From NCBI RefSeq assembly GCF_029887875.1, contig NZ_JARXRM010000028.1:1-64000 (forward strand): a stretch of DNA of 64,000 bases, written 5' to 3'. Shown one piece after another: positions 4,425 through 59,233 of the stretch. Every line of letters begins with the position of its first letter. Within the stretch, counting starts at the first letter, position 1. The DNA comes from Luteimonas endophytica. GTDB taxonomy: Bacteria > Pseudomonadota > Gammaproteobacteria > Xanthomonadales > Xanthomonadaceae. The notes under the pieces are model-generated. The model had not been told where the DNA came from. It saw only the letters and a program-made list of their open reading frames with translations, and ran no database searches. A program made the position numbers and the translations under genes.

Positions 4425-4452
4425 TCCAGGCGACAAGCGTCGCAAGTAAAAG

Positions 4453-5031: not shown

Positions 5032-5234
5032 GGCAGCATCCTTCAGGCTGGGATCCTGCAGCGAGAGGCAGCAGGAGGGTGGGATTATTGCCCAATATGC
5101 CACTAAAGCCCGGCCTTCGCGGATGAGCCGAAGTCCGGTGAGCGCTGGGCACCAGGACCAAGCCTCGTCCAGCCGCCGACCTGCTCCCCGCCTGCCCTGC
5201 AGAGGCGGGAAGCGCGCGGCATCGATGGTCGCAC

Positions 5235-6923
5235 CTAGCTCTTTGGTTGCATATCGAAGGCGATGGTCAATCGTGGTTCCGGGGAGTGGAACGGGACAGT
5301 GCCGTGCCACATGTACGATGGGAACAGGGCCAGGTGACCGGGCTTTGGCTGGATGACCCGACGAGGCGCTAGGTCGAGATCAAGTTCCTCCAGCGGCTGC
5401 CCGAATTGGAGCCATCCGGCGCGAGATGAAATGTCCGACGCAAGCACGTCGCCGGGCAGCGCGACATAGAAGGCGGAGCTCGCCCAACCCTTGGCGTGGA
5501 AATGGTTGGAATGCCGCCCAGAGGATCGCAGTTTCACCGACCAAGATCCGACGAACCGCACACTGCGTTGCCTGCGCGAGAGGAACGGATGCGTTGCATC
5601 GTCCGGCAGGCCGGCCAGCCAGTTCTCGACTGTCTCGCGCAAAACCTCCTCCGCCGACCGTATGACGGCACCACCGCGTCCGAAAAGCTGCCCGGCCGTC
5701 TGCGTGCCGCCACGAACGCTTTGGTTCGCCGGTTCCCGGCTCGCGTTATGCATGGTTTCCAGCGTGGCAGCCAATGCTTGCAGGAACGCGGACAAGTCAT
5801 CGAAACCCGCTGGCGGCACGACTTCGGCATAGCCCACCAGTCCTTGGTAGTCGCACAGCCAATGCTCGCGCTCATCCCCTGCCAGCCGCCATGCCGTGCC
5901 TAGATGGGTCCAGCCTTCCTGGTTGCACGGATCGATCGCGACCGATTTCTCTGCGCAATTCCTGGCCAGCTCGAAGTCTCGTGCACGAAACGCGTGACGC
6001 GCACGCGCATTCAGGAACTCCGGTAGCACGCCCAGTTCACCACGTGCCGCCGCGGCGTACAACGGCGCGGCTTGTTCGTGCCGCTGCAGTGCGTCCAGCG
6101 CCTCCGCGGCAAACCAGTTCAGCAATGCGTTGCCCGGCTCGCGCTTGCGCAATGGCTGCAGCACCGCCAGGGCCTCGTCCGCGTGCTTCGTCATCAACAG
6201 CGTTCGCGCGAAGGCTAGTTGCAGCGCACGGTTCTCCGGCTGAGCCCGCGCCGCCTCGCGAAACTCGCTCAGTGGATCTTCTTCCGGCGCGAGTTCCGCG
6301 CCGTTCTCCCACAGCAGATGGCTCAATGTTTCGTGAGCTGGCGGGTGCCCCGGGTGCACCGCGACGAGCTTGCGCGCCCCCGCCAATGCTTCCGCTGGAC
6401 GGCCTACGTCGATCAACGCGCCATTAATGGCGTCCTGCAGATCGGGCCGGTCGGCGCTGCGTTGATGCAGTATTCCTTCGGCCCGCCGGAACGCGGCCAA
6501 CGCCTCGCCGGCGCGCCCCAACAAACGCAGCACCACCCCCAGGTCGGTCCATGCAGACGCCTGCTCCGGCAACAACGCAAGCGCCTTGCGCAACACCGGC
6601 TCGGCCGCTTCCAATTGGCCTTGTACCCGCAACGCTTTACCGTGCCGGGCGAGGGACACGCCGTAATTGCGCGAGATCACGGCATTGCCCGGCAGCAAGG
6701 CCAATGCGTGTTCAAACGCCGCATTGGCTTGCTCCTGGCGGTCATTGCCTGCCAGGCACATGCCCAACAACTGCCACGCATCCGCTGCCTGCGGCGCCTG
6801 TTCGGTCAGGGTTTGGGCAATGGACTGAGCCTGCTCACGCTGCCCGGATCGCAACATCCCCAGAGCCCGCCTGAAGCGCTCTGCCTGCGCTGCATCCAAG
6901 GGCTGGCCGCGGAGCGCCGACAC
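5235..6923 (-). CDS. TPR protein with C-terminal 2OG-Fe(II) oxygenase domain
   Basis: The protein has 562 residues. Roughly residues 5-330 form tandem TPR helices (for example AWQLLGMCLAG, AWTDLGVVLRLLG, GWTHLGTAWRLAG). The last 100 residues match the putative 2-oxoglutarate/Fe(II) oxygenase family PF13759. Likely iron ligands are in HSNHFHAKGW (H474/H476) and MWHGTVPF (H540), and R551 in RLTIAFD is the likely 2OG-binding Arg. TPRs would present a protein or peptide substrate to the oxygenase. The gene starts 7 bp after the preceding small-protein gene. The next gene upstream in the operon is also an iron hydroxylase, which suggests a shared target. Substrate is unknown. Confidence 0.85.
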   Translation of the reverse strand: MSALRGQPLDAAQAERFRRALGMLRSGQREQAQSIAQTLTEQAPQAADAWQLLGMCLAGNDRQEQANAAFEHALALLPGNAVISRNYGVSLARHGKALRVQGQLEAAEPVLRKALALLPEQASAWTDLGVVLRLLGRAGEALAAFRRAEGILHQRSADRPDLQDAINGALIDVGRPAEALAGARKLVAVHPGHPPAHETLSHLLWENGAELAPEEDPLSEFREAARAQPENRALQLAFARTLLMTKHADEALAVLQPLRKREPGNALLNWFAAEALDALQRHEQAAPLYAAAARGELGVLPEFLNARARHAFRARDFELARNCAEKSVAIDPCNQEGWTHLGTAWRLAGDEREHWLCDYQGLVGYAEVVPPAGFDDLSAFLQALAATLETMHNASREPANQSVRGGTQTAGQLFGRGGAVIRSAEEVLRETVENWLAGLPDDATHPFLSRRQRSVRFVGSWSVKLRSSGRHSNHFHAKGWASSAFYVALPGDVLASDISSRAGWLQFGQPLEELDLDLAPRRVIQPKPGHLALFPSYMWHGTVPFHSPEPRLTIAFDMQPKS

Positions 6924-6930
6924 CTTGCGC

Positions 6931-7398
6931 TCACCGCGTGCGACGCACGCGCACGACCACGCCGTTCGGCATTACCAGGCGATAACCGCCGAATACGGCC
7001 TTGCGTACCTGCACGACATCGCCGGGCTGCACGTGGCCGCTGCTGCGCGACTCGGTTTGCGCCCAGACCTGTCCGTTCTCTAGCGTGAGGACGCGCTGCC
7101 CATCGCGACCGTGATCGACCTTGGCCACGCGGCTTTCGATTCTTTCCGGGTCGGCTTGTTCCATCGTCTGCCCCGGATTGAGCAACGGATCTCGCGGCTG
7201 GTCCAGGCCGAAATCGGCCTGCGCCTTGTCCGTTGCCGCCTGGAGTACATCCGGCGGCGGCGGGAACGCGTGATCGTAGCAGGCCAACCGTGCGGCGGGT
7301 TCGACCACGCCGGTGCAGGCATGAGTAGTCTGTTGCGCAGCCAGTGGCTGCGCGAACAACACAAGAAGCGAAAGCACGAGATAGCGCATCATCATCAT
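6931..7398 (-). CDS. Exported small protein with RLACYD motif
   Basis: The product is about 155 residues with a signal peptide (RYLVLSLLVLFAQPLAAQ). The mature N-terminus has a C-x12-RLACYDHAF motif, seen in many exported proteobacterial proteins including VasI-like type VI accessory proteins. The C-terminal half (LENGQVWAQTESR, GGYRLVMPNGVVVRVRR) looks like a small beta-barrel. Four ATG codons in a row at the start leave the exact initiator among 7389-7398 undecided, with no strong Shine-Dalgarno site. It lies between two hydroxylase genes with gaps of 34 and 7 bp, so it is probably co-transcribed with them. There are no type VI genes in the window, so a secretion role is not supported. Confidence 0.72.
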   Translation of the reverse strand: MMMMRYLVLSLLVLFAQPLAAQQTTHACTGVVEPAARLACYDHAFPPPPDVLQAATDKAQADFGLDQPRDPLLNPGQTMEQADPERIESRVAKVDHGRDGQRVLTLENGQVWAQTESRSSGHVQPGDVVQVRKAVFGGYRLVMPNGVVVRVRRTR

Positions 7399-7432
7399 CC
7401 AGTGGGCGGGGCAGCTAGGATAGCCTTCGGGA

Positions 7433-8707
7433 TCAAAGCGAGTCGCTTGCGCTGCGCCATTCGCGTATCGCACCAGCCAGCGCCGTCGCCATGTCCCGCT
7501 CAGCCGGGCTGAGCAACGGATTCCACACGTCGAACATCAGGATCACGCGCACCTGATCGCTGTCGTTGCGGGCCTCGTGCTCGATCGTGTCGTCGAACAC
7601 CCAACACTTGCCCTCGCGCCACTGCCGCCAGTCGAAGCCGACCCGATAACTGCACTTCTCCGGCACCACCAGCGGCAGGTGCGCCACCAGTCGCGCGTTC
7701 GTCTCGCCAGTGTGCGGCGGAATGTGCGCGCCGGGCGCCAGTGCGGAGAACATTGCGTTCGGGCACAAGCCGGGAATGTCCACCGAATCCACGAGCGCCA
7801 GCGCTTCTGCCGTGCGCGGGCAATGCGACAGATGCTCGTGCACCGGCTTGCCGTGGGCGTACAGGTGGAAGCCGCTCCAGTTGCGCGAGTGATTGAGCTT
7901 GTCCCACTGATTGACCGGATCGCCCGGTGCGTACTGGATGTACGGGACGAACTCCTCGCCGCGGCTGACGATCATCTCCTGCAACTCGGTCTTGATCGCA
8001 TCAGTGCGCGATTCGAGTTCGGCCATCCACGGAAACAATGCGTCGTCATAGAACGTGAGCGCCGGCAGCCGCGGCACGTGCAGTTGGTTGCAGTGCGAAT
8101 GGTAGGGCTGGGTGCGCCCCGCCAGGATCGATATCGCCTCGTCCCAGCGTCCCGCCGGTGACTGGTTCGCCGTGGCCCCCTTCCCGTCCACCCGCCCCCC
8201 CAGGTACTCGACGAGTTCCTGGGTGTCGCGCTCCACCGCCTCGCGCGCGTGCGCTAGCCGCCGCCGCAGCGCAGACGGCCATTCGGGCTCGGCCGGCGCG
8301 ACCTTGAGCGCGTTGCGGAAGGCATCCGCCGCCATCCTGGATTTACGCTGTTGCTCGAAGAACTCGCCCTTTCCCAGCAGCGCCGGCAGGAAGTAGGGAT
8401 CGATCTCGAGCGCGGCGACGATCGCGCCCCACTCCTGCTCGGGCCGCCCGGCTTCGCGATGGACCCGACCGATGGTCAGCAGGACCATCGGGTCCCGCGG
8501 CGCCTGCGCGCGTGCCTGCTGGAGGAACTCCAGCGCGGCCTGCGAGTCGCCGCGCTGGAAGGCGTGCACGCCCAGGCTGAAGAGTGCCTGCACGTTGCCC
8601 GGATCCAGTGCGTGCACCTGGCCCCACAGCCTTTCGGCCTCCTGCCAGCGCCCACCGGCTGCGGCGTCCCCCGCGGCGTCCACCAAAGACGGCAACTGCC
8701 TGTTCAC
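7433..8707 (-). CDS. TPR protein with aspartyl/asparaginyl beta-hydroxylase domain
   Basis: The protein has 424 residues. Residues about 5-165 are TPR-like helices. Residues about 250-400 are an AspH-type domain (PF05118) that hydroxylates Asp or Asn side chains using Fe(II) and 2-oxoglutarate. The family signature is intact: PGAHIPPHTGETN gives iron ligand H332, FDDTIEHEARND gives H377, and R387 in RVILMFDVWNP should bind 2OG. This family uses only two His ligands, so the lack of an Asp is normal. It starts at GTG and heads the minus-strand operon that runs toward the TonB receptor. The substrate is not known, but exported or outer-membrane proteins of the same locus are candidates. Confidence 0.87.
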   Translation of the reverse strand: MNRQLPSLVDAAGDAAAGGRWQEAERLWGQVHALDPGNVQALFSLGVHAFQRGDSQAALEFLQQARAQAPRDPMVLLTIGRVHREAGRPEQEWGAIVAALEIDPYFLPALLGKGEFFEQQRKSRMAADAFRNALKVAPAEPEWPSALRRRLAHAREAVERDTQELVEYLGGRVDGKGATANQSPAGRWDEAISILAGRTQPYHSHCNQLHVPRLPALTFYDDALFPWMAELESRTDAIKTELQEMIVSRGEEFVPYIQYAPGDPVNQWDKLNHSRNWSGFHLYAHGKPVHEHLSHCPRTAEALALVDSVDIPGLCPNAMFSALAPGAHIPPHTGETNARLVAHLPLVVPEKCSYRVGFDWRQWREGKCWVFDDTIEHEARNDSDQVRVILMFDVWNPLLSPAERDMATALAGAIREWRSASDSL

Positions 8708-10873: not shown

Positions 10874-11488
10874 TCAGCGCGGGATCAGCGTCGCCATGAC
10901 GTGCTCGATGTATTCATCGAAGGTGTCGTGGTCGAGCCGAGACTGCGGCAGCTGCAGCGACAGCTGCAGGAAGCCGACATAGGCGGTATAGGCCAGGCGC
11001 GCACGGTGCTGCGCCTCGCTGCGACCCAGCCCGACCTGCCTGAACGAGGCGGTGAGGTATTCCAGCCGGCGCTCGGAAACGCGGCCGATCACCGGCTGCA
11101 CGATCGGATGGTCCAGCGCCTGCAGCATGGCGCTGTAGATCGCATGCGACTTGATCTCGTGGGCGACCATCTGGATCAGCGCGCGCAGGCGCTCCTGCGG
11201 GTCCGAAATCTTCTCGAGGGCGCCGAACACGGCTTCCTGCTCGACGTTCTCCCAGCGCTCCAGCGCCGCCTGCAGCAGCGCGTCGCGCGAGGGGAAATGC
11301 CAGTAGAAGCTGCCCTTGGTCACCCCCAGGCGGCGCGCCAGGGGCTCGACCGCGACCGCGGCCACGCCCTGCTCGGCGATCAGGTCGAGCGCCGCCTGGG
11401 CCCAGTCGTCGGCACTGAGGCGGCCGCTGCGCTCCGGCGGTCTGGCGGCTTTCGGCTTGCCCGAAGCCGGGGCGGCGGCGGAAGTCAT
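10874..11488 (-). CDS. TetR-family repressor, divergent from fadE
   Basis: The protein has about 204 residues. An N-terminal TetR DNA-binding domain includes [21 protein letters not shown] and the recognition-helix motif KGSFYWHFPSRDALL. The all-helical C-terminal half should bind a small ligand. ATG 11488 is chosen because upstream codons run into the fadE control region. The gene is divergent from fadE, and a palindrome overlapping a sigma-70 promoter lies between them, so it most likely represses fadE and senses acyl-CoA or a fatty acid. That role is inferred from layout and from the known habit of TetR regulators of fatty-acid oxidation. Confidence 0.85.
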   Translation of the reverse strand: MTSAAAPASGKPKAARPPERSGRLSADDWAQAALDLIAEQGVAAVAVEPLARRLGVTKGSFYWHFPSRDALLQAALERWENVEQEAVFGALEKISDPQERLRALIQMVAHEIKSHAIYSAMLQALDHPIVQPVIGRVSERRLEYLTASFRQVGLGRSEAQHRARLAYTAYVGFLQLSLQLPQSRLDHDTFDEYIEHVMATLIPR

Positions 11489-11562
11489 GGGGAGCAAGTG
11501 TATCCATACGCCGGGGTCGGGAAAAGGATCGTCATGCCCGCGCCACGCGCCGGGCACGATCA

Positions 11563-11603
11563 TTGACAGGGCCCGCCCGGCTCACCATACTCCAACGTAT
11601 GGT
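11563..11603 (+). promoter_or_regulatory. fadE promoter with overlapping palindromic operator
   Basis: TTGACA (11563-11568) and CATACT (11586-11591) are 17 bp apart, a good sigma-70 promoter reading toward fadE. The -10 hexamer lies inside the inverted repeat ACCATAC-N6-GTATGGT (11584-11603), perfect over seven bases per arm. A repressor bound there would block RNA polymerase. The divergent tetR product is the obvious candidate. Confidence 0.75.
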
Positions 11604-11661
11604 TCAAGGCCGCACCGCGTGCGGCCATTCCCCGCCAGGCCTCGCCCTCCCGGAGCTCCCC

Positions 11662-14136
11662 ATGAGTGTCGCGATCCCGTTCATCGTCTTCCTGCTCGTT
11701 GGCGCGTTCGCCGCCTACCACCGGCTGCGGCTGGCGGTCTGGGCGGCGCTCGCCTTCACCGCGCTGCTGGCCTGCTGGCTGCTCGGCGCGCACCCGGTGG
11801 CCACCGCGATCGCCGCCGCCATCGCCGCTCTGATCGCGGTGCCGCTGCTGATCCCGGCCATCCGCCGCCCGCTGATCACCCGGCCGCTGCTGGGCTTCTA
11901 CCTGAAGATCCTGCCGCCGCTGTCGGAAACCGAGCGCACCGCGCTGGAGGCCGGTACCGTCGGCTTCGAGGGCGAGCTGTTCTCCGGCCGGCCCGACTGG
12001 CAGGTGCTGCTGGACCAGCCGAAGGCCGAGCTGACCGCCGAGGAACAGGCGTTCGTCGACGGCCCCACCGAGCAGCTGTGCCGGATGACCAACGACTGGG
12101 AAATCACCCACGTCGACGCCGACCTGCCGCCGGCCATGTGGGAGTTCATCAAGAAGAACCGCTTCTTCGGCATGATCGTGCCCAAGGAATACGGCGGGCT
12201 GGGCTTCTCCGCGCTCGCCAACCACAAGGTGATCCAGAAGCTGGCCTCGATCTCCAGCGTGGTCAGCTCCACCGTCGGCGTGCCCAACTCGCTCGGCCCG
12301 GGCGAACTGCTGATCCACTACGGCACCCAGGAACAGAAGGACCACTACCTGCCGCGCCTGGCCGACGGCCGCGAGGTCCCCTGCTTCGCCCTGACCGGGC
12401 CGTTCGCCGGCTCCGACGCCACCTCGATCCCGGACTACGGCATCGTCACCATGGGTGAGTGGAACGGCGCGCGGGTGGTCGGCGTGCGGCTGACCTTCGA
12501 CAAGCGCTACATCACGCTGGCGCCGGTGGCCACGCTGATCGGGCTGGCGTTCCGCATGTACGACCCGGACGGCATCCTGGGCGAGAAGAAGGACATCGGC
12601 ATCACCCTGGCGCTGGTGCCGCGCGAAACCCCCGGCGTGGAGATCGGCCGCCGCCACTTCCCGCTCAACAGCACGTTCCAGAACGGTCCGATCCGCGGCA
12701 AGGACGTCTTCATCCCGCTCAGCCAGCTGATCGGCGGCGAAGCGTATGCCGGCAAGGGCTGGCAGATGCTGGTGGAGTGCCTGTCGATCGGGCGTTCCAT
12801 CACCCTGCCCTCCTCCGGCAGCGGCGGCGCCAAGATGGGCGCGATCGTCACCGGCGCCTACGCACGCATCCGCAAGCAGTTCGGTCTGTCGGTGGGCCGC
12901 TTCGAGGGCGTCGAGGAGGCACTGGCGCGGATCGGCGGCCGGGCGTTCGCGATCAGCGCGCTGGCCCAGGCCACCGCCGCGGCGGTGGCGCGGGGGGAAA
13001 ACCCGGCGGTGCCGTCCACCATCGCCAAGTACCACTGCACCGAGATGGCGCGCGAGGTCTCGCGCGACGTGATGGACGTGCACGGCGGCAAGGGCATTAT
13101 CCTCGGCCCGCGCAACTACGCCGGCCGCAACTGGCAGGCGGTGCCGATCATGATCACGGTCGAAGGCGCCAACATCATGACCCGCAGCCTGATGATCTTC
13201 GGCCAGGGCGCGATCCTCTGCCATCCGTGGGTGCTCAAGGAGATGAAGGCCGCGCAGCTCGAGGACGAGCGCGAGCGCCTGGTCGAGTTCGACCGCAACC
13301 TGTTCGGCCACATCGGCTTCGCCATCTCCAACGCGGTGCGCAGCCTGTGGTTCGGCCTGACCGGCGCACGCTTCGGCACGGCCCCCGGCGACGCCTATAC
13401 CCGCCGGTACTACCGCAAGCTCAACCGCTACTCGGCGGCCCTGGCGCTGATGGCCGATACCTCGATGCTGCTGCTCGGCGGCAAGCTGAAGTTCAAGGAA
13501 TCGCTGTCCGGGCGCCTGGGCGACGTGCTCAGCCAGCTCTACATCGCCAGCAGCATGCTCAAGCGCTACGAGGACCAGGGCCGGCCCGCCGGCGACCAGC
13601 CGCTGCTGGCCTGGGCCTTCCACGATTGCGTGCACAAGATCGAGATGGCGTTCTCCGGCGCGCTGCGCAACTTCCCGATCCGGCCGGTGGGCTGGCTGCT
13701 GTGGGGCCTGGTGTTCCCCTGGGGCCGGCGCGCGGTGGCGCCCAGCGATCGCCTCGGGCACCGGGTCGCCGCACTGCTGATGAACCCGAACGACGCCCGC
13801 GACCGTCTCGCCGAGGGCGTGTTCACCACGCCCTGCGCCAACAACCCCGCCGGCCGCATCAACAGCTATCTGGCCAAGGCGATCCAGGCCGAACCGGTGG
13901 AGCGCAAGTTCCTCAAGGCGCTGAAGAACAGCGACATCGAGTCGCTCGACTTCGCCACCCAGCTCGACGAGGGCGTGCGCGAGGGCTGGATCACCGCCGA
14001 CGAACGGGGATTGCTCGAGGAGCTGCGCGAGCTCACCCTCGACACCATCAGCGTGGACGATTTCGATCCGCACGAGCTGGTGGCGGCGACCCACTACGAG
14101 CGCGGGCAGGGCAAGGCCTCGCGCGAGGCGGCCTGA
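11662..14136 (+). CDS. fadE: FadE-type acyl-CoA dehydrogenase
   Basis: The 824-residue flavoenzyme carries out the first step of fatty-acid beta-oxidation, forming trans-2-enoyl-CoA. Two or three N-terminal membrane helices (about residues 1-65) precede the acyl-CoA dehydrogenase core with FALTGPFAGSDATS and the C-terminal flavin segment DVHGGKGIILGPRNY. A long C-terminal extension (about residues 520-824) is the DUF1974 domain typical of this large bacterial FadE class. ATG 11662 has GGAG at 11652-11655. An upstream in-frame start would overlap the promoter. The divergent TetR gene and the operator-promoter overlap suggest fatty-acid-responsive control. Confidence 0.95.
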   Translation: MSVAIPFIVFLLVGAFAAYHRLRLAVWAALAFTALLACWLLGAHPVATAIAAAIAALIAVPLLIPAIRRPLITRPLLGFYLKILPPLSETERTALEAGTVGFEGELFSGRPDWQVLLDQPKAELTAEEQAFVDGPTEQLCRMTNDWEITHVDADLPPAMWEFIKKNRFFGMIVPKEYGGLGFSALANHKVIQKLASISSVVSSTVGVPNSLGPGELLIHYGTQEQKDHYLPRLADGREVPCFALTGPFAGSDATSIPDYGIVTMGEWNGARVVGVRLTFDKRYITLAPVATLIGLAFRMYDPDGILGEKKDIGITLALVPRETPGVEIGRRHFPLNSTFQNGPIRGKDVFIPLSQLIGGEAYAGKGWQMLVECLSIGRSITLPSSGSGGAKMGAIVTGAYARIRKQFGLSVGRFEGVEEALARIGGRAFAISALAQATAAAVARGENPAVPSTIAKYHCTEMAREVSRDVMDVHGGKGIILGPRNYAGRNWQAVPIMITVEGANIMTRSLMIFGQGAILCHPWVLKEMKAAQLEDERERLVEFDRNLFGHIGFAISNAVRSLWFGLTGARFGTAPGDAYTRRYYRKLNRYSAALALMADTSMLLLGGKLKFKESLSGRLGDVLSQLYIASSMLKRYEDQGRPAGDQPLLAWAFHDCVHKIEMAFSGALRNFPIRPVGWLLWGLVFPWGRRAVAPSDRLGHRVAALLMNPNDARDRLAEGVFTTPCANNPAGRINSYLAKAIQAEPVERKFLKALKNSDIESLDFATQLDEGVREGWITADERGLLEELRELTLDTISVDDFDPHELVAATHYERGQGKASREAA

Positions 14137-14244
14137 GCGGATGCGCCGTGACCGGGGCCGGTTCCTGCAGCCTGGGATGCGAAGCGCGCCGCGGGCCCCG
14201 CGCGGCGGCCCGGCCCTGACCGGCTGGACCGCCGGGAAGCCGGA

Positions 14245-14628
14245 GTGAACACGCCTGCCGAGCGGCTCGTGCTGCTGGCCGGCCTGCATAGCGCAGGCTT
14301 CGCGCTCTTCCATGCCGCGTTCTGGAAACTGTTCGGCTGGAAGCATGAACTGCGCAAGCTCGCTCTTCCCACCCGGGCGATCACCCAGATCCTCAATCTC
14401 CGGTTGATCTACGTGTTCGCCGGTATCGCCGCGCTCTGCTTCCTGTTCCCGGCGGAAATCGCGGGAACTCCGCTCGGACGTGGGCTGCTGGCATTCATGG
14501 CGCTGTTCTGGGTGGGGCGCACGATCGAACAATTCGTGTTCCTGCGCGTGAACCATCCGATGGTGCACGCGCTGACCGCGCTGTTCGTGCTCGGCGCGGC
14601 GCTGTTCGCGCTGCCGCTGTTCGGCTGA
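14245..14628 (+). CDS. Small four-helix membrane protein, unknown function
   Basis: The 127-residue product has about four predicted membrane spans (near residues 8-27, 49-70, 78-97 and 105-125) and few charged residues between them. Conserved-looking polar positions include H15, H23 and the FLRVNHPMVH segment. It starts at GTG 14245 behind a purine-rich GGGAAG stretch. It lies 108 bp after fadE on the same strand and may be read through from it. I do not recognise a characterised family. Confidence 0.7.
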   Translation: MNTPAERLVLLAGLHSAGFALFHAAFWKLFGWKHELRKLALPTRAITQILNLRLIYVFAGIAALCFLFPAEIAGTPLGRGLLAFMALFWVGRTIEQFVFLRVNHPMVHALTALFVLGAALFALPLFG

Positions 14629-47844: not shown

Positions 47845-48015
47845 TGGAACCCCACGATAGCCAGGTTGCCAGCCGGATATCGACCGTCGACCGGGAATCT
47901 GTAGTCGCTGGGCGGATCCGCCCGGCGACGCGACGCGGCGGGCTTGACCGGCACGCGCGCCGCGTCGCAGGCTTCGCGCTCCGCCCCGCCGGGACCTTCG
48001 GGACAGCGCCGCGCC

Positions 48016-48483
48016 ATGACAGCCGAACTGCAGATCCGCCTCGACCCGCTGAGCGGACCGGAGATCGCCGGCCTGCTGCAGGAGCACCTGGACGACATGG
48101 CACGCCACTCGCCGCCCGAGAGCATCCACGCGCTGGACCTGGCCCGGCTGCGTGCGCCGGGCGTCACCTTCTGGAGCGGGTGGTTCGGCGACGAGCTCGC
48201 CGGCTGCATCGCGCTCAAGGAACTCGACCCGCTGCGCGCCGAGCTCAAGTCGATGCGCACCTCCGCCCGGCACCTGCGCAAGGGCGTGGCGGCCGCCCTG
48301 CTCGCGCACGTGCTGGAGGAGGCGCGGCGCCGCGGCTACCGCCGACTCAGCCTGGAGACCGGCTCGATGGCGGCGTTCGCCCCGGCCCGGGCGCTGTACG
48401 CGCGCCACGGCTTCGGCCCGTGCGCACCGTTCGGCGACTACCGCCAGGATCCCCACAGCGTCTTCATGAGCCGGACGCTCTAG
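48016..48483 (+). CDS. GNAT-family N-acetyltransferase
   Basis: The 155-residue protein has the GNAT fold: FWSGWFGDELAGCIALKEL, then the acetyl-CoA-binding motif region RHLRKGVAAALLAHVLEEARRRGY, shown in parts, and ALYARHGFGPCAPFGDY. The target may be a small molecule or a protein N-terminus. It lies 228 bp upstream of the lanthipeptide precursor gene on the same strand. A tailoring role in that pathway is possible but not shown; the gap is long for an operon. Confidence 0.9.
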   Translation: MTAELQIRLDPLSGPEIAGLLQEHLDDMARHSPPESIHALDLARLRAPGVTFWSGWFGDELAGCIALKELDPLRAELKSMRTSARHLRKGVAAALLAHVLEEARRRGYRRLSLETGSMAAFAPARALYARHGFGPCAPFGDYRQDPHSVFMSRTL

Positions 48484-48711
48484 GGGCGTCCGGCCGGCCG
48501 GGCGCCGCCGGCCGCCCTCCTCCCGTCGCGCGCCGGTCGGCCGCCATCGTGGAACGTGATGGCCGTTCTTGAATCGCCCTCCGGCCTGTGACTAGATCGG
48601 CGCGTACCGGAGGCATGGCCGATCGTCCGTGGCATCTTCACCGTCATCGCGTCGTCCGGACATGTGCGCCCGGTACATGGTGTTTCCTCAAACAACGGAA
48701 GGAGAGGAGCT

Positions 48712-48912
48712 ATGAATGGTGCAATGCACGAGCCGGGCGTGGTAGCCCAATGGCGCAACGACGCGGATGCCGGCAATCCCGCCGGGCCGTTGTTCATATC
48801 GGGGGAATACGCCGAGGCCGATATCGTCTCGGAGAAGCAGCGGGCGACGTTCTTCACCCTCTGCGGCTGCGGCACCGCATGCACGGGTTCCCAGACCCGG
48901 CAGTGCTGCTGA
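48712..48912 (+). CDS. Class II lanthipeptide precursor (LanA)
   Basis: The 66-residue peptide is a likely ribosomally made, post-translationally modified precursor. The leader (about residues 1-45) has a mersacidin/lichenicidin-type pattern: VVAQWRNDADAGNPAG, with the conserved W and NPAG. The C-terminal core is Cys-rich: TLCGCGTACTGSQTRQCC, with Cys at 51, 53, 57, 65 and 66 and six Thr/Ser from residue 46 on as dehydration sites. Up to five thioether rings are possible. No GG, GA or GS cleavage pair is evident before the core. ATG 48712 has the strong site GGAAGGAGAGGAG just upstream. lanM begins 16 nt after the stop. A weak promoter candidate (TTGAAT at 48569) lies upstream. Confidence 0.88.
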   Translation: MNGAMHEPGVVAQWRNDADAGNPAGPLFISGEYAEADIVSEKQRATFFTLCGCGTACTGSQTRQCC

Positions 48913-48928
48913 AGCGAACACCCCGCTG

Positions 48929-51820
48929 ATGGCGTCCGCGGCAACGGGATTGGATGCCGACAATTTTTCCGCTTCCCTGGGCTGTCTGATCGCTCCCTCC
49001 CTGGGAGAACTGGCAGCCCGGCTTGTTTCCGTAGCCGGACTCTCGCCAGCCGAGCGCGAGGTGATCCTTTCGGCAACCGAAACCTCGCTGTCGTTCGTAC
49101 TGCATGCGAAGCTCAGCCGCCTGCTGGTGCTCGAACTCAACGCCGCGCGCGTCGATGGCCGCCTCGCCGGCGAGGATCCGCGAGCACGATGGCGCGCGTT
49201 CCTGGAGATCTCGGCCCGGCCTTCGTTCTGGGAAGGTCTCTCCGTCCACTATCCCACACTGCGGGGGCGGATCGAGGCCATCGTCGCCAACCGCTGCGCG
49301 GCAGCGCTCGAATTCGCGCGGCACTGGGCCTCCGACCGCCGCGACCTCGGGGGCCTGACCGGTGGCGACGCGGGCGAACTGGCGGCACTGGGCTTCGGCG
49401 CAGGCGACAGCCATCGCCGGGGGCGCACGGTGGCGATCGCCGAATGCGCCGCGGGCCGGGTCGTCTACAAGCCCCGCTCGCTGGCCGTCGACAACGCCCT
49501 GCGCGGGTTCGTTGCGGCGCTCCGCCCGCACCTGCCGGGAACGACCATCGCGGTTCCGGCCGCGCTGGACCGCGGTGGGTACGGCTGGGGCGAGTTCATC
49601 GAGCATCGCCATGCCGCCGACGCCCGCGAACTGCGCGACTTCTATCGCGGTATCGGCCACTGGCTGGCGATCATGCGGCTGCTCGGGGGGAGCGATCTCC
49701 ACGCCGAGAACCTGATCGCGTGCGGCGGCAGCGCCGTCATCGTCGACTGCGAAACGCTGTTCACGCCGGTCGCCGCGCCGGCGCAGTTCGGGTACGGCGA
49801 CGCCCTGGACCGCGCGGCGGCGCTGCTGTCCGGCACGGTGCTCGGCATGGGGCTGCTCCCGGGACGCGGCATCGGGCTGGGCTGGCGCGGCGTCGACACC
49901 TCGGCGGTCGGCATGCTCGGCGGCCAGCAACCGGAAGTGCCGCAACCCGACATTCTCGGCGTGGGCACGGACGAGGCGCGGATCGGCATGTCGATGCGGG
50001 CCATGCCGGTCGCGCGCAATCACCCCAGCCCGGCGCCCGCCCTCGCCGATCACTGGCCCGAAGTGCTGGCGGGTTTCGATGCCATGTCCGAGGTGCTCGT
50101 CGCCCGTGACCGGGCCGGCGAACTGCGCGAGCGAATGGAGGCGTTCGCCGGGTGTCCCATCCGCATCGTCCCGAGAGCCTCCGAGGTCTATGCCGAGATC
50201 GGCAGGATGCTCTGGCACCCGGTGTCCCTGCACAAGCCGGCGCCGGCGCGGGAACGGGCGGCGACGCTGCTTCGCAGGATGGCAGCCAACGCCGGCTTCG
50301 CACCGGCCGAGGCGGAGGTGATCGATGCCGAGATCGAGGACCTGCTGATCGGCGACATCCCCTTTTTCACCGCGCTGGCGGCGCCCGGCGCCATCGAAGG
50401 TCCCGGCGGCACCGGGTGGCGCTCCCTGGCCGACCCGATCGGCGATGCGCACCGGCGCTGGCACGGCTTCGATCGCGCGCTCGACCGCAACCTCATCAGG
50501 GCTTCGCTGGTCAGCGCCTATATCAACGACGGCTGGATGCCGAACGACGTGTCGCTGCTTCCCGCGAAAGGCTCGGGAGGCGATCCGGAAGCGCGGCGCA
50601 GGCGCCACGCCGCGCGGATCGTCTCCAACCTGGTGGGCAGCGCCATCCATGGCGACGACGGCAGCGTGACCTGGATCGCCCCGGTGCTCGGGCCGGCGGG
50701 TTGGGCGGTCCAGCCGCTGCCGCCCGATCTGTACACGGGCCTGTCGGGCGTCGCGCTGCTGGCGGCCGCGTACCTGCGCGAGACCGCCGCCGGGCGCGCG
50801 GACCCCGTTGCCGGGCTGGACGCGCTCCTCTCGGCGACCCTGCACAGCCTGGGGCTTTTCCAGCATGCGCTCGAACGGAACGGGGCGAGTGCGGACGGAG
50901 CGAAGGTCCGCCCACCGGCCCCGGGCGGGTTCACCGGGCTGGGCTCGCAGATCTGGACCTGGCTGCTGCTGGCCGACTGGGGCATGGATGGGGGGGAAGG
51001 CATCGAGCGCGCCGAAGCGCTGGCCGGACACCTGCCGCACGCGGCGGCCGCGGACAACGAACTCGACATCCTGTCCGGTGCCGCCGGGGCGATCGTTCCG
51101 CTGCTCGAGCTGGCGGATGCGAGCGGCCAGCCGCGATACGCCGACGCGGCGGCAAGGATCGGCGACCGGCTATGCGATCAGGCCGACGTGCACGAGGGGC
51201 GCGCGTGCTGGCGGCAGGAGCGCTGGCCGGACGGAATCGGGGGCTTCGCCCACGGTGTCACCGGCATCGGCTGGGCGCTGGAGCGGCTGGCGATGCGCAG
51301 CGGCGATGCCCGCCACCGCCGTACCGCCGCCGCCGCATTCGCGTTCGAAGACGCCTTGTTCGATACCGGCGAGGGCGCATGGCGCGACCTGCGCAACCTT
51401 CCCGGCGGGCAGAAGACCGCCGCCGCCTGGTGCCACGGGGCGGTGGGCATCGGCCTGGCGCGGCTGGATCTGGACCCGGCGTGCGCGCAGCAGGAAACCG
51501 TGCGGATCCTGCGGCGCGCCGCGGAAGCGACCTGGCGCCGGGGACTGGGCTGGAACCACTGCCTCTGCCACGGCGATCTCGGCGCCTGGGAGCTCCTGCG
51601 TCGCGCCGAGGCCGCCGATGCGCTCCCCAAAGGCTGCAGCATTGGCGAGCTGCTGGACCGGATCCTGGACAGCCTGGACATGCACGGCGCCTCCTGCGGC
51701 ATCGCCCGCGACGCGTTCATCCCCGGCCTGCTGCCGGGCGTGGGGGGAATCGCCTACCAACTGCTGCGCGCGCACCCCGATTGCCGGCTGCCTTCGGTGC
51801 TGCTCCCGGGCAGGTACTGA
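48929..51820 (+). CDS. lanM: Class II lanthionine synthetase (LanM)
   Basis: The 963-residue bifunctional enzyme dehydrates Ser/Thr of its precursor and adds Cys thiols to form lanthionine rings. The N-terminal kinase-like dehydration domain (DUF4135, about residues 90-590) shows VVYKPRSLAVDN (K181), GGSDLHAENLI (D256, H258, N261) and VIVDCETLF (D273). The LanC-like cyclase domain (about 600-963) carries the zinc ligands C835 (AAWCHGAVG), C880 and H881 (NHCLCHGDLG), plus GGFAHGVTGIG and the repeats of the helical toroid. All catalytic groups are present, so it should be active. ATG 48929 follows a weak Shine-Dalgarno site, so coupling to lanA translation is likely. No transporter or peptidase gene follows. 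Confidence 0.95.
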   Translation: MASAATGLDADNFSASLGCLIAPSLGELAARLVSVAGLSPAEREVILSATETSLSFVLHAKLSRLLVLELNAARVDGRLAGEDPRARWRAFLEISARPSFWEGLSVHYPTLRGRIEAIVANRCAAALEFARHWASDRRDLGGLTGGDAGELAALGFGAGDSHRRGRTVAIAECAAGRVVYKPRSLAVDNALRGFVAALRPHLPGTTIAVPAALDRGGYGWGEFIEHRHAADARELRDFYRGIGHWLAIMRLLGGSDLHAENLIACGGSAVIVDCETLFTPVAAPAQFGYGDALDRAAALLSGTVLGMGLLPGRGIGLGWRGVDTSAVGMLGGQQPEVPQPDILGVGTDEARIGMSMRAMPVARNHPSPAPALADHWPEVLAGFDAMSEVLVARDRAGELRERMEAFAGCPIRIVPRASEVYAEIGRMLWHPVSLHKPAPARERAATLLRRMAANAGFAPAEAEVIDAEIEDLLIGDIPFFTALAAPGAIEGPGGTGWRSLADPIGDAHRRWHGFDRALDRNLIRASLVSAYINDGWMPNDVSLLPAKGSGGDPEARRRRHAARIVSNLVGSAIHGDDGSVTWIAPVLGPAGWAVQPLPPDLYTGLSGVALLAAAYLRETAAGRADPVAGLDALLSATLHSLGLFQHALERNGASADGAKVRPPAPGGFTGLGSQIWTWLLLADWGMDGGEGIERAEALAGHLPHAAAADNELDILSGAAGAIVPLLELADASGQPRYADAAARIGDRLCDQADVHEGRACWRQERWPDGIGGFAHGVTGIGWALERLAMRSGDARHRRTAAAAFAFEDALFDTGEGAWRDLRNLPGGQKTAAAWCHGAVGIGLARLDLDPACAQQETVRILRRAAEATWRRGLGWNHCLCHGDLGAWELLRRAEAADALPKGCSIGELLDRILDSLDMHGASCGIARDAFIPGLLPGVGGIAYQLLRAHPDCRLPSVLLPGRY

Positions 51821-51989
51821 AGCCACGGCGCTCTCGTGGAGACACCGGCAAGGCCATCCATCCGTTTCGTGGCGGCAATGCTCCCCTGCCGCGCTGCGCG
51901 ACGGTCCGGACGCAAGACAGCACGGAATCCGCCGTCGCGAACGGCGGCTGAACGACGGTTCGATTCATCGATGCCGACCACTCCCGGGC

Positions 51990-52017
51990 CTTGAAACCGG
52001 CACCGTCGGGCCTATCC
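51990..52017 (+). promoter_or_regulatory. Heat-shock (sigma-32 type) promoter of hsp20
   Basis: CTTGAAA (51990-51996) matches the sigma-32 -35 box exactly. GCCTATCC (52010-52017), 13 bp later, is a partial match to CCCCATNT. The spacing equals that at htpG. Transcription would start about 40 bases before the hsp20 ATG. Confidence 0.55.
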
Positions 52018-52063
52018 GGCCGCGCGGACGGATGCCGTCCGAGCACAACCAGGAGACCAAGCC

Positions 52064-52540
52064 ATGAACGAGATGGTTCGCCAATCCCGGTGGCCCGCGC
52101 AGGAGCGGGCCCATGACCCGATCCGCCAGCTGTTCGACCGCTTCTTCGAGGGAAGCCTGCTCCATGGCGATTCCACCGACGAATCCTCGGTGGTCACCAG
52201 CCAGTGGGTACCGCGCGTCGACATCCGCGAGGAGTCGGATCGCTTCCTGCTCTATGCCGACCTGCCTGGCGTCGATCCCCAGGAGATCGAGGTCCAGATG
52301 GACAACGGCGTGCTGACGATCAAGGGCGAGCGCCGCGTCGAGGACAAGTTCGAATCGGGACGGTTCTCGCGCATCGAGCGTCGCCACGGCAGCTTCCACC
52401 GACGCTTCGCCCTGCCCGACAGCGCCGATCCCGACGGCATCAGCGCCTCCGGCCACAACGGGGTGCTGCAGATCGTGATCCCGAAGCGTCCGGAGACCAC
52501 GCCGCGCCGCATCCAGGTCGGCCCGGTGCTCAACTCCTGA
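52064..52540 (+). CDS. Small heat-shock protein (Hsp20/alpha-crystallin)
   Basis: The 158-residue holdase binds unfolded proteins and keeps them soluble. The alpha-crystallin domain spans about residues 45-145: WVPRVDIREESDRFLLYADLPGVDPQEIEV in two parts, GVLTIKGERR, SFHRRFALPDSAD and GVLQIVIPK, where the A-x-x-x-N-G-V-L-x-I-x-I/V-P-K end is diagnostic. A short I-x-V C-terminal tail (RIQVGPV) is present for oligomerisation. AGGAG lies about eight bases upstream of ATG 52064. A sigma-32 type promoter precedes it and a very strong hairpin follows. Confidence 0.95.
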   Translation: MNEMVRQSRWPAQERAHDPIRQLFDRFFEGSLLHGDSTDESSVVTSQWVPRVDIREESDRFLLYADLPGVDPQEIEVQMDNGVLTIKGERRVEDKFESGRFSRIERRHGSFHRRFALPDSADPDGISASGHNGVLQIVIPKRPETTPRRIQVGPVLNS

Positions 52541-55122: not shown

Positions 55123-56172
55123 CTATAGCGGCCGTGCGGTGCCCGGCTGTAGCGCGCCCCCCCGCGGCGCCGTCCATGCCCCGGGGGCGGGCGGATCCCG
55201 GTCCGTCAGGCGCTCCAGCAGCGCGCACAGGCTGCGCAGGTCCTGGGCGTTGTGGGCGCCGACGCGGCGCAGCTTGGCGGCGCTGCCGCCGCGCAGATAG
55301 CCCAGCCACGCCGCGGGCGCCTCGGCGCCCGGCAGGTCGTCCTCGCGCACCACGCCGAGCAGTTCGCGCTCGGCGGTCGCCAGCCGGCAGTTCGGCCACA
55401 CGCCCCGGTAGCGGCGCCGCATCGGGTGCAGCAGGTCGATGTGGCCGCAGCCGGGCAGCGGGTCGGGCTGGCGGGCGAGCCGGAAACGGGTGCTGAGCAG
55501 CGGTCGGTCGTAGCTCTTGCCGTTGTAGCTGAGCAATACCGTGTCCGGACCGAGCCAGCCGGCGAAGATGCGCAACATCTCGGCTTCGGCGGCCAGCGTG
55601 GCGATGCACAGCTGGCGCAGGCGCAGTCCGCCGTCGCGGAAGTCGGCGGCGCCGATCATGAAGGCGCGGGTGCCGGTCCCGCCGGCAAGCCCGGTGGTCT
55701 CGGTGTCGAATGCGAGCAGGTGCTCGCGCGCCACTTCGCCCTGGCCGATGCCGTACAGCGACAGCGGCCCGTGCGCCTCCCACGGCGCCCAGGTCTCGAC
55801 GTAGCGCAGGCCGGGGGCGATCTCCTCGCCGTTCAGGGCGCGGTCGGCCGCCGGTGCCGGGCGCGGCGCCGGCCGCGGCTGCAGATCGAGCAGGCGACGC
55901 AGCCTGGCGATCGCGGCATCGCGCGCGCCTCCGGCTGCGTCGCCGAGTTCCGCATCCACCGCGCCCGGATCGCGCGCAGCGGCATTCGCAGCCGCCCGGC
56001 AATCGGGCAGGCGGTCGACGACCGCGACCCCGGTCGGGGCCGCCGGAACCGGCGGCTCGCTGCGCGCGGCACCCCTCCCGTCCGGCGCCACGGGTCGAGC
56101 GCGGGCCGCGGATTCTCCCGCGGCACCCGCCTCACGCCGCAGCCCGGCCAGGCGCCTTGCCAGCTGGGTCAT
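55123..56172 (-). CDS. MrfB-like 3'-5' exonuclease (RNase H fold)
   Basis: The 349-residue protein has an RNase_H_2 (YprB) exonuclease domain at about residues 150-330. The DEDD metal site is visible as LLAFDTETTGLAGG (D156, E158), LLSYNGKSYDRPLLSTRF (Asp), and VGAHNAQDLRSL (Asp). The first 110 residues are Ala/Pro/Arg-rich and probably disordered. Its ATG overlaps the stop of the upstream helicase gene (ATGA), so the two are translated together. In Bacillus subtilis the same pair, MrfA-MrfB, repairs mitomycin C lesions; this function is inferred by gene pairing and motifs. Confidence 0.88.
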   Translation of the reverse strand: MTQLARRLAGLRREAGAAGESAARARPVAPDGRGAARSEPPVPAAPTGVAVVDRLPDCRAAANAAARDPGAVDAELGDAAGGARDAAIARLRRLLDLQPRPAPRPAPAADRALNGEEIAPGLRYVETWAPWEAHGPLSLYGIGQGEVAREHLLAFDTETTGLAGGTGTRAFMIGAADFRDGGLRLRQLCIATLAAEAEMLRIFAGWLGPDTVLLSYNGKSYDRPLLSTRFRLARQPDPLPGCGHIDLLHPMRRRYRGVWPNCRLATAERELLGVVREDDLPGAEAPAAWLGYLRGGSAAKLRRVGAHNAQDLRSLCALLERLTDRDPPAPGAWTAPRGGALQPGTARPL

Positions 56173-58580
56173 GCCGCCTTGCCCAGCAGTTCGAGCACGC
56201 GCAGCGCATGCCGCTTCGGCGCCTCCTCGGCCTCCTCCTGCGCGGCCAGCACCGGCCCCACGCAGGCGGGACAGCCGCCGCTGCAGGCGCAGCCGCGGAC
56301 CAGCTCCGTGGCGCGCGCGTGCAGTTCGGCGCGGCGCTCGTACAGCGGCAGCGACAGGCCCACCCCGCCGGGATAGTTGTCGTAGAGGTACAGGGTCGGC
56401 GTGAACCCGCGTACCTGCTCCGGCGCTCCGGCCTCGCCACCGGCATTGCGCCAGCTGCCGCGCCCGGCCGCGTCGCTGCTGGCGAACCAGGCGCCGTCGC
56501 CGCTGCCGACCGCCTTCTGCAGGTCGCGACTCTCGGCCATCACCAGCAGTTGCGCCATCAGATGCAGCGCATGCGCGGCGCCCAGGAATCCGTCGAGGGC
56601 GTGCTGGCGGCTGTCGAACGCGGCATCCAGCACGCGCTGCGGCAGCTGCCACCAGGCTGCGGTGGTGTGCAGCTCCTGGTCGGGCAGCGCGACCGGGCCG
56701 TAGCCGATGTTCTCGTGGCTATGGAAACGGATCTTCTTGTACCCGGACACGCGCCGCACCACGTGCACCTCGCCGTGGCTGGCGTCGCCCTCGCCCGCTG
56801 CCGCCGTCTCGGCCTGGTCCAGCACCTTCAGCCGGGTGTAGTCGATCGCGTCGGTGTAGTAGTCGACGTGGGTGCGGCGCACGTAGGCCTTGCGGCCCTC
56901 CCAGTCCAGGCGCTCGACCTGGAACGGCTCGGACTGGATCATGTGGATCGCGCCCTCGTAGAGGGTCAGCGCGGCGGCGGAGTAGTCGACCTCGGCGAGG
57001 ATGGTCTGGCGGCCGTCGGTCCGATCCACCACCACGAAGTTGCCGTCGGCCACCGAGCGCAGGTTGACCGCCTGCGCCGGATAGCTGTCGGCGATCCACT
57101 CCCAGCGCCCGCCTTCGCGGTGCAGCACGCCGCTCTCGGCCAACACCTCCAGCCAGGGGCCGGGTTCGACCGGGCCGAACGCGTCGCCGTCGACGAACGG
57201 CAGCTCGAACGCGGCGCAGCGGATGTGGTCCATCAGGATCAGCGGCTGGTCCGGCTCGATCCGCGCGTGCTCGGGGTTGGCTGCGGCGAAGAATTCGGGA
57301 TGGCGCACGATGTACTGGTCCATCGGCTGCGAGCTGGCCACCAGCACCCCGAGCGAGGGTTTGCGGCGGCGGCCGGCGCGGCCGAAGCGCTGCCAGGTGG
57401 CGGAGACGCTGCCGGGGTACCCGTTGAGCACCACCACGTCGAGGCTGCCGATGTCGACGCCGAGCTCCAGCGCCGAAGTGCTGACGATGCCGTCGATCTC
57501 GCCGGCGCGCATCGCCCGCTCCACCTCGCGGCGCTCGGTGGGCAGGTAGCCGCCGCGGTAGGCGCGGATCCGCCGCGGCTTGCGCGGGTCGTGGTCGAAG
57601 ACCTCCTTCAGATACTTGGTCAGCACCTCCACCATCAGCCGGCTCTGGCAGAACACCAGGGTCTTCAGCCCCGCCTTGATCGCGATGCGGGCGATCCGGT
57701 TGGCCTGAGAGCGTGCCGAGGCGCGGATGCCCAGGTCCGGGTTCACCACCGGCGGGTTCCACAGCAGGATGTGCCGGTCGCCATGGGGTGCGCCGCTCTC
57801 GGTCACCGCGTCCACCGGCACCTCCACCAGCGCCCGGGCGTGCGCGGCGGCGTTGCCGATGGTCGCCGAGCAGAGGATGAACTGCGGCGTCACCCCGTAG
57901 AACGCGCACACCCGCTTCAGCCGCCTGACCACGTTGGCGACGTGCGAACCGAACACGCCGCGGTAGGTATGCACTTCGTCGATCACCACGTAGCGCAGGT
58001 TCTCGAAGAACTGCGCCCACTTGGTGTGGTGCGGCAGGATCGCCTGGTGCAGCATGTCCGGGTTGCTGACCACGATGTCGCCGTTGAGGCGGATCGCCTG
58101 GCGCGCATCGCCCGGAGTATCGCCGTCGAAGGTGGCCGCGCGCAGACCGAGTTCTCCGGCGCGATTGAACTCGAGCAGTTCGGCCACCTGGTCCTGGGCC
58201 AGCGCCTTGGTCGGGAAAAGGTACAGCGCCTTGCTGCCGGCCTCGAGCGCCGCGGCCACCACCGGCAGGGTGTAGCACAGCGACTTGCCCGAAGCCGTCG
58301 GCGTGGCGACGACGATGCTGCGCCCGGCCCGGCAGGCCTCCCAGGCCTGCGCCTGATGGCTGTACAGGCGCTCCAGCCCGCGCGCGCGCAGCGCCGCGCA
58401 CAGGCGTGGCGGCAGGTCGCCGGGAAACGGCGCGAAGCGCCCTTCCCGGCCCGGCACCAGGAGGCTGCCGGTGATGCGTTCGCCATAGCGCTGCGCCAGG
58501 CGTTCGGCCAGTGCGGTGCCGTCGCCGGCACTGCCGGCAGGGGCGATGGGATGGTCGGCGGAGCGGAGGATCGCGTTCAA
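56169..58580 (-). CDS. MrfA-like DEAD/DEAH helicase with DUF1998 domain
   Basis: The protein has about 803 residues. Helicase motifs: Q-like SHQAQAWEACR, Walker A VATPTASGKSLCY (residues 91-103), DEVH (201-204), SATIGNAAAH, then domain-2 motifs IDGIVSTSALELGVDIG and WQRFGRAGRR. A C-terminal DUF1998 domain carries a four-Cys zinc site (C764, C766, C770, C773; GCACSGGCPACVG). This is the YprA/MrfA architecture, a 3'-5' DNA helicase in mitomycin repair. The start is TTG 58580, since no ATG or GTG fits before the domain; a longer frame is not supported. It forms an operon with the exonuclease gene. Confidence 0.9.
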   Translation of the reverse strand: MNAILRSADHPIAPAGSAGDGTALAERLAQRYGERITGSLLVPGREGRFAPFPGDLPPRLCAALRARGLERLYSHQAQAWEACRAGRSIVVATPTASGKSLCYTLPVVAAALEAGSKALYLFPTKALAQDQVAELLEFNRAGELGLRAATFDGDTPGDARQAIRLNGDIVVSNPDMLHQAILPHHTKWAQFFENLRYVVIDEVHTYRGVFGSHVANVVRRLKRVCAFYGVTPQFILCSATIGNAAAHARALVEVPVDAVTESGAPHGDRHILLWNPPVVNPDLGIRASARSQANRIARIAIKAGLKTLVFCQSRLMVEVLTKYLKEVFDHDPRKPRRIRAYRGGYLPTERREVERAMRAGEIDGIVSTSALELGVDIGSLDVVVLNGYPGSVSATWQRFGRAGRRRKPSLGVLVASSQPMDQYIVRHPEFFAAANPEHARIEPDQPLILMDHIRCAAFELPFVDGDAFGPVEPGPWLEVLAESGVLHREGGRWEWIADSYPAQAVNLRSVADGNFVVVDRTDGRQTILAEVDYSAAALTLYEGAIHMIQSEPFQVERLDWEGRKAYVRRTHVDYYTDAIDYTRLKVLDQAETAAAGEGDASHGEVHVVRRVSGYKKIRFHSHENIGYGPVALPDQELHTTAAWWQLPQRVLDAAFDSRQHALDGFLGAAHALHLMAQLLVMAESRDLQKAVGSGDGAWFASSDAAGRGSWRNAGGEAGAPEQVRGFTPTLYLYDNYPGGVGLSLPLYERRAELHARATELVRGCACSGGCPACVGPVLAAQEEAEEAPKRHALRVLELLGKAA

Positions 58581-58688
58581 GGGCGGCCCGGTGGCGGCAG
58601 GGGACGCCGTTGTAGGGCGGCCGCGTCTCACCCGATGAGTCTGCGATGTCGCTGAGCCGTGGTCGGCACCGGCGGCAGGCATGAAGAA

Positions 58689-58710
58689 GGGCGCACCTCG
58701 CGGCGCGCCC
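58689..58710 (-). terminator. Weak terminator-like hairpin after the DUF892 gene
   Basis: GGGCGC (58689-58694) pairs with GCGCCC (58705-58710) around a 10-base loop; on the minus strand TTCTTC follows. The stem is short and the T-run broken, so termination here is only possible. Confidence 0.35.
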
Positions 58711-58732
58711 CTCGGGTCCCACGGGGTCGCGA

Positions 58733-59233
58733 TCAGGCGGCTTGACGGGCGGCGCGCCGGTTGCCGCCGCTCTCGGCCAGCATGGTCAGCTTCTCGTCGG
58801 TGGCCTTCTCCTCGTCCAGGGTTTCCTGCAGCAGCGGAATGGCGTCCTTGTAGCCGAGCTGCTTGGCCAGGGCGCAAAGGGTGCCGTAGGAGGCGATTTC
58901 GTAGTGCTCGACCTTCTGCGCGCCGCCGATCAGCGCGGCATCGCGCAGCGGGCCGGCCTCGACCTCCTCGATCACTTCCTTGCCCTCCTCGATCAGTCCC
59001 TCCATGGCGGCACACTTGATGCGCTTGAGCTTGATGCCCAACAGCTCGACCACCTGGTCGATGCGCTCGATCTGGCCGTTGGTCTCCTCGAGGTGGGTCT
59101 CGAAGGCGGCCTTCAGCTCGGGGGCGTCGGCCGCCTTGGCGAGGCGCGGCAGCGCCTTGGTCAGCTGCTTCTCGGCGCTGTGGATGTCGGAGAGCTCGTG
59201 GATGAACAGTTCTTCGATGGTCTTGACGGACAT
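58733..59233 (-). CDS. Ferritin-like DUF892 (YciF-type) protein
   Basis: The 166-residue all-helical protein has the DUF892 four-helix bundle: TIEELFIHELSDIHSAEKQL, LKAAFETHLEETNGQIERI, and GGAQKVEHYEIASYGTLCAL with candidate di-iron ligands Glu and His. YciF-type proteins are induced by general and osmotic stress and are related to rubrerythrin; their enzymatic role is unsettled. The promoter should lie in the gap before it. A weak hairpin follows. Confidence 0.93.
   Translation of the reverse strand: MSVKTIEELFIHELSDIHSAEKQLTKALPRLAKAADAPELKAAFETHLEETNGQIERIDQVVELLGIKLKRIKCAAMEGLIEEGKEVIEEVEAGPLRDAALIGGAQKVEHYEIASYGTLCALAKQLGYKDAIPLLQETLDEEKATDEKLTMLAESGGNRRAARQAA

Follow-up and report, generated by a model that had tools for sequence, protein, structure and literature searches.

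A lanA-lanM gene pair for a predicted class II lanthipeptide of the DUF6229/rhodanocin family in Luteimonas endophytica

Few studies have dealt with lanthipeptides of Gram-negative bacteria, and the one DUF6229 product with a solved ring pattern is active against a Gram-negative species (PMC9576775). This peptide, encoded by Dyella sp. 333MFSha, was made in E. coli from a refactored cluster and identified in 2022 as a class II lanthipeptide, for which the name rhodanocins was proposed (PMC9576775). The product has undergone four dehydrations and carries three rings in a pattern solved by NMR, namely T6-C11, C8-S14 and T12-C23 with Dhb18; the form tested against Klebsiella pneumoniae, which resulted from a probably non-native AspN cut, displayed weak activity at 126 uM, and the C39 protease LahT150 did not cut the precursor (PMC9576775). 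The same study describes its products from Dyella and Pseudomonas as the first obtained from gammaproteobacteria (PMC9576775). For Lysobacter, 72 class II clusters have been described, with 27 unique precursors in six clusters, and 21 of the 27 belong to DUF6229 (PMC11451712).

Within the stretch of 64,000 nucleotides analysed here (hereafter the window), a precursor gene, lanA, is followed after 16 nt by lanM, the gene for a class II lanthipeptide synthetase (Table 1). We consider it very probable that these two genes make up a locus for a class II lanthipeptide belonging to the DUF6229/rhodanocin family, lanA encoding a small peptide and lanM an enzyme expected to convert it, by cross-linking, into a molecule with rings and possibly with antibacterial activity. 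In a Pfam profile search, the precursor scored 68.6 bits against a cut-off of 25 for DUF6229 (PF19740), which makes it a member of the family, and no NCBIfam model matched it at an E-value of 1. Its five Cys are residues 51, 53, 57, 65 and 66, such that the core contains CGCGTAC and ends in CC, and from residue 46 onwards it has six Ser/Thr (T46, T49, T55, T58, S60 and T62). The leader/core boundary was placed tentatively at residue 45/46; similar leaders are found in relatives. An initial annotation had already recognised a class II lanA-lanM pair in a Gram-negative genome, comprising a 66-residue peptide with these Cys and Ser/Thr numbers, a W and NPAG in the leader, the CGCGTAC stretch and the CC end, as well as the 16-nt gap and a LanM of 963 residues; translation, coordinates and the matches to DUF6229 and TIGR03897 agree with it throughout. 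A promoter scan found no sigma-70-like site (0 against 0.1 expected), and neither promoter nor terminator scans gave a signal exceeding chance. As a separate observation, the 600-base segment around lanA (48500-49099) has the lowest G+C (0.65) between positions 44000 and 56000, similar to the value of 0.66 at 51800-52399.

Table 1. Features of the lan locus in the window, and exporter and oxidoreductase genes of related loci
Feature	Position	Strand	Remarks
GNAT acetyltransferase	47944-48483	+	nearest same-strand gene upstream of the lan pair
Shine-Dalgarno-like AGGAGAGGAG	48700..48709	+	from sequence; 2 nt 5' of the lanA ATG
lanA, 66-aa DUF6229 lanthipeptide precursor	48712..48912	+	translation; ATG 48712, stop included; Pfam PF19740 E 4.3e-19
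lanA leader part, residues 1-45	48712..48846	+	W and NPAGPLFISGEYAEADI; similar leaders in relatives
lanA core part, residues 46-66	48847..48909	+	TFFTLCGCGTACTGSQTRQCC; six Ser/Thr, all five Cys
lanM, 963-aa class II lanthipeptide synthetase	48929..51820	+	ATG 48929, stop included; TIGR03897
LanM dehydratase domain DUF4135, residues 108-482	49250..50374	+	Pfam PF13575 E 2.3e-92, 310.5 bits
LanM cyclase domain LANC_like, residues 596-958	50714..51802	+	C835, C880, H881; PF05147 E 2.2e-41, 142 bits
Hsp20	52064-52540	+	nearest same-strand gene downstream of the lan pair
GNAT-to-helicase interval, source	47944-48483 (GNAT) and 55123-59015
L092, ABC exporter / FAD oxidoreductase genes	11265-13052 and 13034-14479	+	3' of lanM
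L093, ABC exporter / FAD oxidoreductase genes	5729-7519 and 4309-5949	-	3' of lanM
L102, exporter/FAD oxidoreductase region	3764-5209	-	3' of lanM

The synthetase reached 551.8 bits against the TIGR03897 cut-off of 304 in the NCBIfam search and consists of an N-terminal DUF4135 dehydratase fused to a C-terminal LanC-like cyclase, so that both architecture and curated cut-off assign it to the LanM class. Residues K181, D256, H258, N261, D273, E275, R412, C835, C880 and H881 are invariant in all 43 distinct LanMs of an alignment, which was built from the 50 sequences with more than 800 aligned residues after removal of duplicates, rows with 800 or fewer being excluded. From work on CylM-type enzymes, we take these residues to be the catalytic and zinc-binding ones, and on this assumption the intact dehydratase and cyclase residues noted in the initial annotation are indeed in place. 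Position 418 is Thr in 38 of the aligned LanMs and Ser in five, including that of the source genome. Among the excluded rows are the split LanMs of another genome, G011, both of which (L007/L011 and L013/L015) match in two pieces with breaks near query residues 490 and 326, either by sequencing error or by true breakage.

By their leaders, the DUF6229 precursors fall into two broad sets, one of the source type (WR..A...NPAGPLF.SGEFAEADI) and one with MQ...IVSGWL...NPAGSLY.EG. The source core ends in CGTACTGSQTRQCC, and the same 14 residues recur in G595, which belongs to a different family (f12) within the order; synonymous changes affect 8 of the 14 codons there, and the others are unchanged. 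Related tails of the type CG[T/S][A/I/V]C[T/S]GS are found in G065, G051, G053, G595, G628, Oleiagrimonas and several Dyella. Among the recovered precursors, the extra Cys-Gly directly before CGTAC occurs only in the source and G065; several Dyella precursors have an additional Cys at other spacings. Compared with G065, its nearest relative, in which the core is conserved, the source precursor has 10 nonsynonymous and 12 synonymous codon differences in residues 1-40, and 4 and 10, respectively, in residues 41-66. NG86 dN/dS amounts to 0.106/1.03 over the full precursor, with 0.130/0.96 in residues 1-40 and 0.071/1.16 in residues 41-66; these ratios are rough given the near-saturated dS and the short sequences. 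Judged by these codon comparisons, the core TLCGCGTACTGSQTRQCC is under purifying selection.

One might argue that lanA is a small ORF standing by chance beside a LanM that modifies another peptide, as LanMs can act on several precursors and several loci have two DUF6229 genes beside one LanM (e.g. G015:C92 and G011:C1). We rejected this explanation, to which we give next to no credence, on account of the family match (E 4.3e-19) and the selection on the core; moreover, genome searches found a single DUF6229 gene in the source genome, adjoining its single LanM match. The loci in which two DUF6229-type precursors accompany one LanM are L111, L113, L114, L026/L039 (G015) and L027/L038 (G011), and in some of them the two cores are clearly unlike each other.

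The pair recurs in related genomes, as a conservation check proposed with the initial annotation revealed. DUF6229 was found in 13 of 52 genomes of the genus, at least 33 of 395 of the family, at least 43 of 397 of the order and at least 3 of 398 of the phylum, the own genome counted each time and all three of the last within the same family; the counts of the larger searches are lower bounds because these scored at most 15 first-look candidates per genome. No DUF6229 match was found in 14 control genomes. A LanM lay inside the fetched flanks of all 65 DUF6229 loci, which are the best matches of each search, include the source locus and in some cases overlap or share a genome. The converse pairing fails, as the LanM-like matches of G035 and one of those of G004 were not seen adjoining a DUF6229 gene. 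Homologues lacking the Cys-rich core, which the initial annotation had named as evidence against its reading, did not appear: Cys is present in 66 of 66 distinct tails and in 14 of 14 precursors, a result limited by a search profile that was itself built from Cys-bearing seeds. In Streptomyces sporangiiformans (L024, near 7320), a LanM 31% identical to that of the source is preceded by a peptide whose leader has the NPAG motif and whose tail, CTVTTEC, is reminiscent of mersacidin-type cores; NPAG leaders are thus not confined to the DUF6229 loci of the xanthomonad order.

In the LanM tree, the source enzyme groups with G065 (100/100), then with G051 (99/98) and then with G053 (82/95, not starred). 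The rhodanocin-type LanMs fall in a 99/100 clade with L094 and L095, and those belonging to MQ-type leaders form a 100/100 clade; the source LanM lies outside the latter, on the same side as the rhodanocin-type enzymes, and the deeper order of the remaining branches is unsettled. Identity to the source LanM ranges from 69.5% (G065), 62.0% (G051), 60.9% (G053) and 58.5% (G595) to 51.8% in L112, a locus of the rhodanocin core type, and about 39-43% in the MQ-leader loci.

By family search, the annotated neighbours of the pair encode GNAT, Hsp20, a hybrid kinase, EAL and GGDEF regulators, an RNase H-like protein, a helicase and a CitMHS transporter; none of these genes is for a peptidase, for an ABC exporter or for immunity of a known type. 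The GNAT gene was rejected as a cluster member, being common in the genus (30 of 52 genomes at an E-value of 0.001, some matches weak), and it lies near lan genes on one contig only in the source genome (G000), G051 and G065; Hsp20, present in 44 of 52 genomes of the genus, was rejected likewise. In the source and G051, the lan genes occupy the same interval, from the GNAT gene to the RNase H-like gene and the MrfA-type helicase. Between these two genomes, identity is 95.5% for the helicase, 91.5% for the RNase H-like protein and 77.5% for GNAT against 62% for LanM, and the lan genes are oppositely oriented relative to the shared flanks. A distance of about 25 kb in G014 and about 29 kb in G023 separates GNAT from the helicase, and in both genomes the lan genes are located elsewhere. 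From the sequences compared, this arrangement fits an exchange of lan cassettes at a variable chromosomal site; for the source and G051, fast divergence together with an inversion would also fit.

New here is an ABC exporter gene 3' of lanM in six related loci, of which the source and G065 have no orthologue. A tblastn search that used an ABC transporter from the source genome as query, and so was blind to other kinds of exporter, matched 7 of 39 neighbourhoods (the entire 64-kb window and 38 loci, each 8-19 kb long), by which the notion that the DUF6229 family has no transporter was rejected. Six matches lie just 3' of lanM on the same strand (L092, L093, L100, L101, L102 and L120), and the seventh (L108), also 3' of lanM, is weak and spans 64 residues. 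No match was obtained in the window at an E-value of 1e-4, nor in L017, L019, L113 and L114, where only about 0.4-1.1 kb of sequence is available 3' of lanM. The exporter has roughly 600 residues and an ABC_tran domain, and the three copies scanned gave no C39 match. Orthologues of the G051 exporter, sought in 14 genomes, are restricted to G051 (the query itself), G053, G595 and G087 (61-100% identity, at least 744 bits), in each case within the lan locus, and the best matches in the other ten reach at most 284 bits, those of the source (38%) and G065 (37%) about 272-275 bits. The pair of the source and of its nearest LanM relative is therefore reduced compared with those of the genus mates G051 and G053. 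In three of the six loci (L092, L093 and L102), the exporter gene is followed by a gene for a FAD_binding_4/BBE oxidoreductase, possibly a tailoring enzyme; neither gene adjoins lanM in the source. A stop-to-stop ORF clustering of 28 loci, in which only LanM and an antisense frame among the 30 largest clusters occurred in all 28, missed the exporter, probably because the long open frame that contains its gene also included other sequence.

Since the exporter of the sister loci has no orthologue in the source, export could be impaired, and the pair might even be a decaying remnant that survives without yielding a secreted product. The restriction of the orthologues to four genomes, neither G000 nor G065 among them, and the lack of an exporter match in the window speak for such a decay. 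Against it, both genes are intact with their invariant residues kept, most other family loci are likewise devoid of an exporter match (apart from four that cannot be judged), and selection has continued, as a dN/dS of about 0.1 shows for G000 compared with G065, neither of which has the orthologue; we regard decay as unlikely. A product with an intracellular role, a signal or a metal binder would need neither exporter, peptidase nor immunity gene, in line with the neighbourhood described above and with the Cys-rich core. Such a non-antibiotic function nevertheless seems improbable to us, as the homologous Dyella product inhibited K. pneumoniae (PMC9576775) and six related loci keep an exporter gene.

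For the locus as a functional lanthipeptide pair, we propose that LanM would read the NPAG-type leader of the precursor, that its dehydratase domain would phosphorylate core Ser/Thr and eliminate the phosphate, and that its zinc cyclase domain would add the thiols of the Cys residues, so that as many as five (methyl)lanthionine rings could form. Leader removal and export would fall to proteins encoded elsewhere, because the flanks of the pair showed no recognisable gene for a peptidase, an ABC exporter or immunity, and the product would most likely act against competing bacteria. The lack of a sigma-70-like site and of the exporter orthologue, the weak activity of the Dyella product and the departure from the exact rhodanocin spacing weigh against this proposal. 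No LanT-type protein, i.e. an ABC transporter with a C39 peptidase, was found in the source locus or genome: of the two PF03412 matches in the genome, one is a soluble C39-like protein, and the other is an ABC transporter with a C39 domain that, by reading of its sequence, seems to have no catalytic Cys. The soluble C39-like peptidase gene (L067, 1255-2046) lies on another contig than the lan locus and adjoins a repeat-rich ORF that reads as adhesin-like. More tentatively, and with considerable doubt, we suggest that the lineage of G000 and G065 may make a five-ring lanthipeptide with overlapping rings of an unreported kind, formed by C-T-G-S and the extra Cys, without the exporter gene kept by sister loci in the genus; as that gene is absent in both, the product would then either depend on an exporter and a peptidase of general function or work without being secreted.

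How, then, does the locus compare with known systems? Of solved LanMs, LicM2 and CylM match the source enzyme best, the former aligning over dehydratase and cyclase including the active-site motifs (207 bits) and the latter over residues 42-481 (87 bits), although overall similarity is low. The Lysobacter class II lanthipeptides, which are uncharacterised, share Pfam family and class with the source (PMC11451712). The suggestion of the initial annotation that the product may be a new lanthipeptide holds for a family member whose core was not met in a word search of open-access texts, but not for its kind, since DUF6229 peptides and rhodanocins had already been described (PMC9576775, PMC11451712); its remark that characterised examples are few accords with the priority given to the Dyella and Pseudomonas products (PMC9576775). 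The locus is a real but ordinary new member of the DUF6229/rhodanocin family, with a tail of its own. The relatives with CG[T/S][A/I/V]C[T/S]GS tails resemble it in leader type and C-terminal block, with LanMs 51-69% identical, and some of them, unlike the source, carry the exporter and FAD oxidoreductase genes 3' of lanM. Together with the source they constitute a graded series, in which the cores differ in Cys number and only some of the loci have the exporter and FAD oxidoreductase genes; such a series would allow ring topology, leader removal and export to be compared directly.

Rhodanocin itself, the LanII product of Dyella sp. 333MFSha, shares with the source the DUF6229 leader, a LanM as its maker, the C-[T/S]-G-S block and the lack of an obvious protease. 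It has three rings and its C8 and C11 lie three residues apart, whereas the source core has five Cys, with CGCGTAC and a CC end. The spacing of rhodanocin proper (T6, C8, C11, T12, S14, T18 and C23) does not recur in the source core, where the Cys of CGTAC are four positions apart rather than three and the stretch to the last Cys is shorter. Rhodanocin-type tails (L111-L114, e.g. TDCAMCTGSIKNTIHIYCA) have C-T-G-S in common with the source but the previous Cys nearer; L112 was typed as rhodanocin-like because, when its residues are numbered from the one following its GG, it agrees with the published core at each of the seven positions. Due to the extra cysteines, homology does not fix the full ring pattern of the source. 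By analogy with the C-T-G-S block of rhodanocin, however, C57 would form a ring with one of two Thr on its N-terminal side (T49 or T55), S60 with one of two Cys on its own N-terminal side (C53 or C51), and T58 with C65 or C66.
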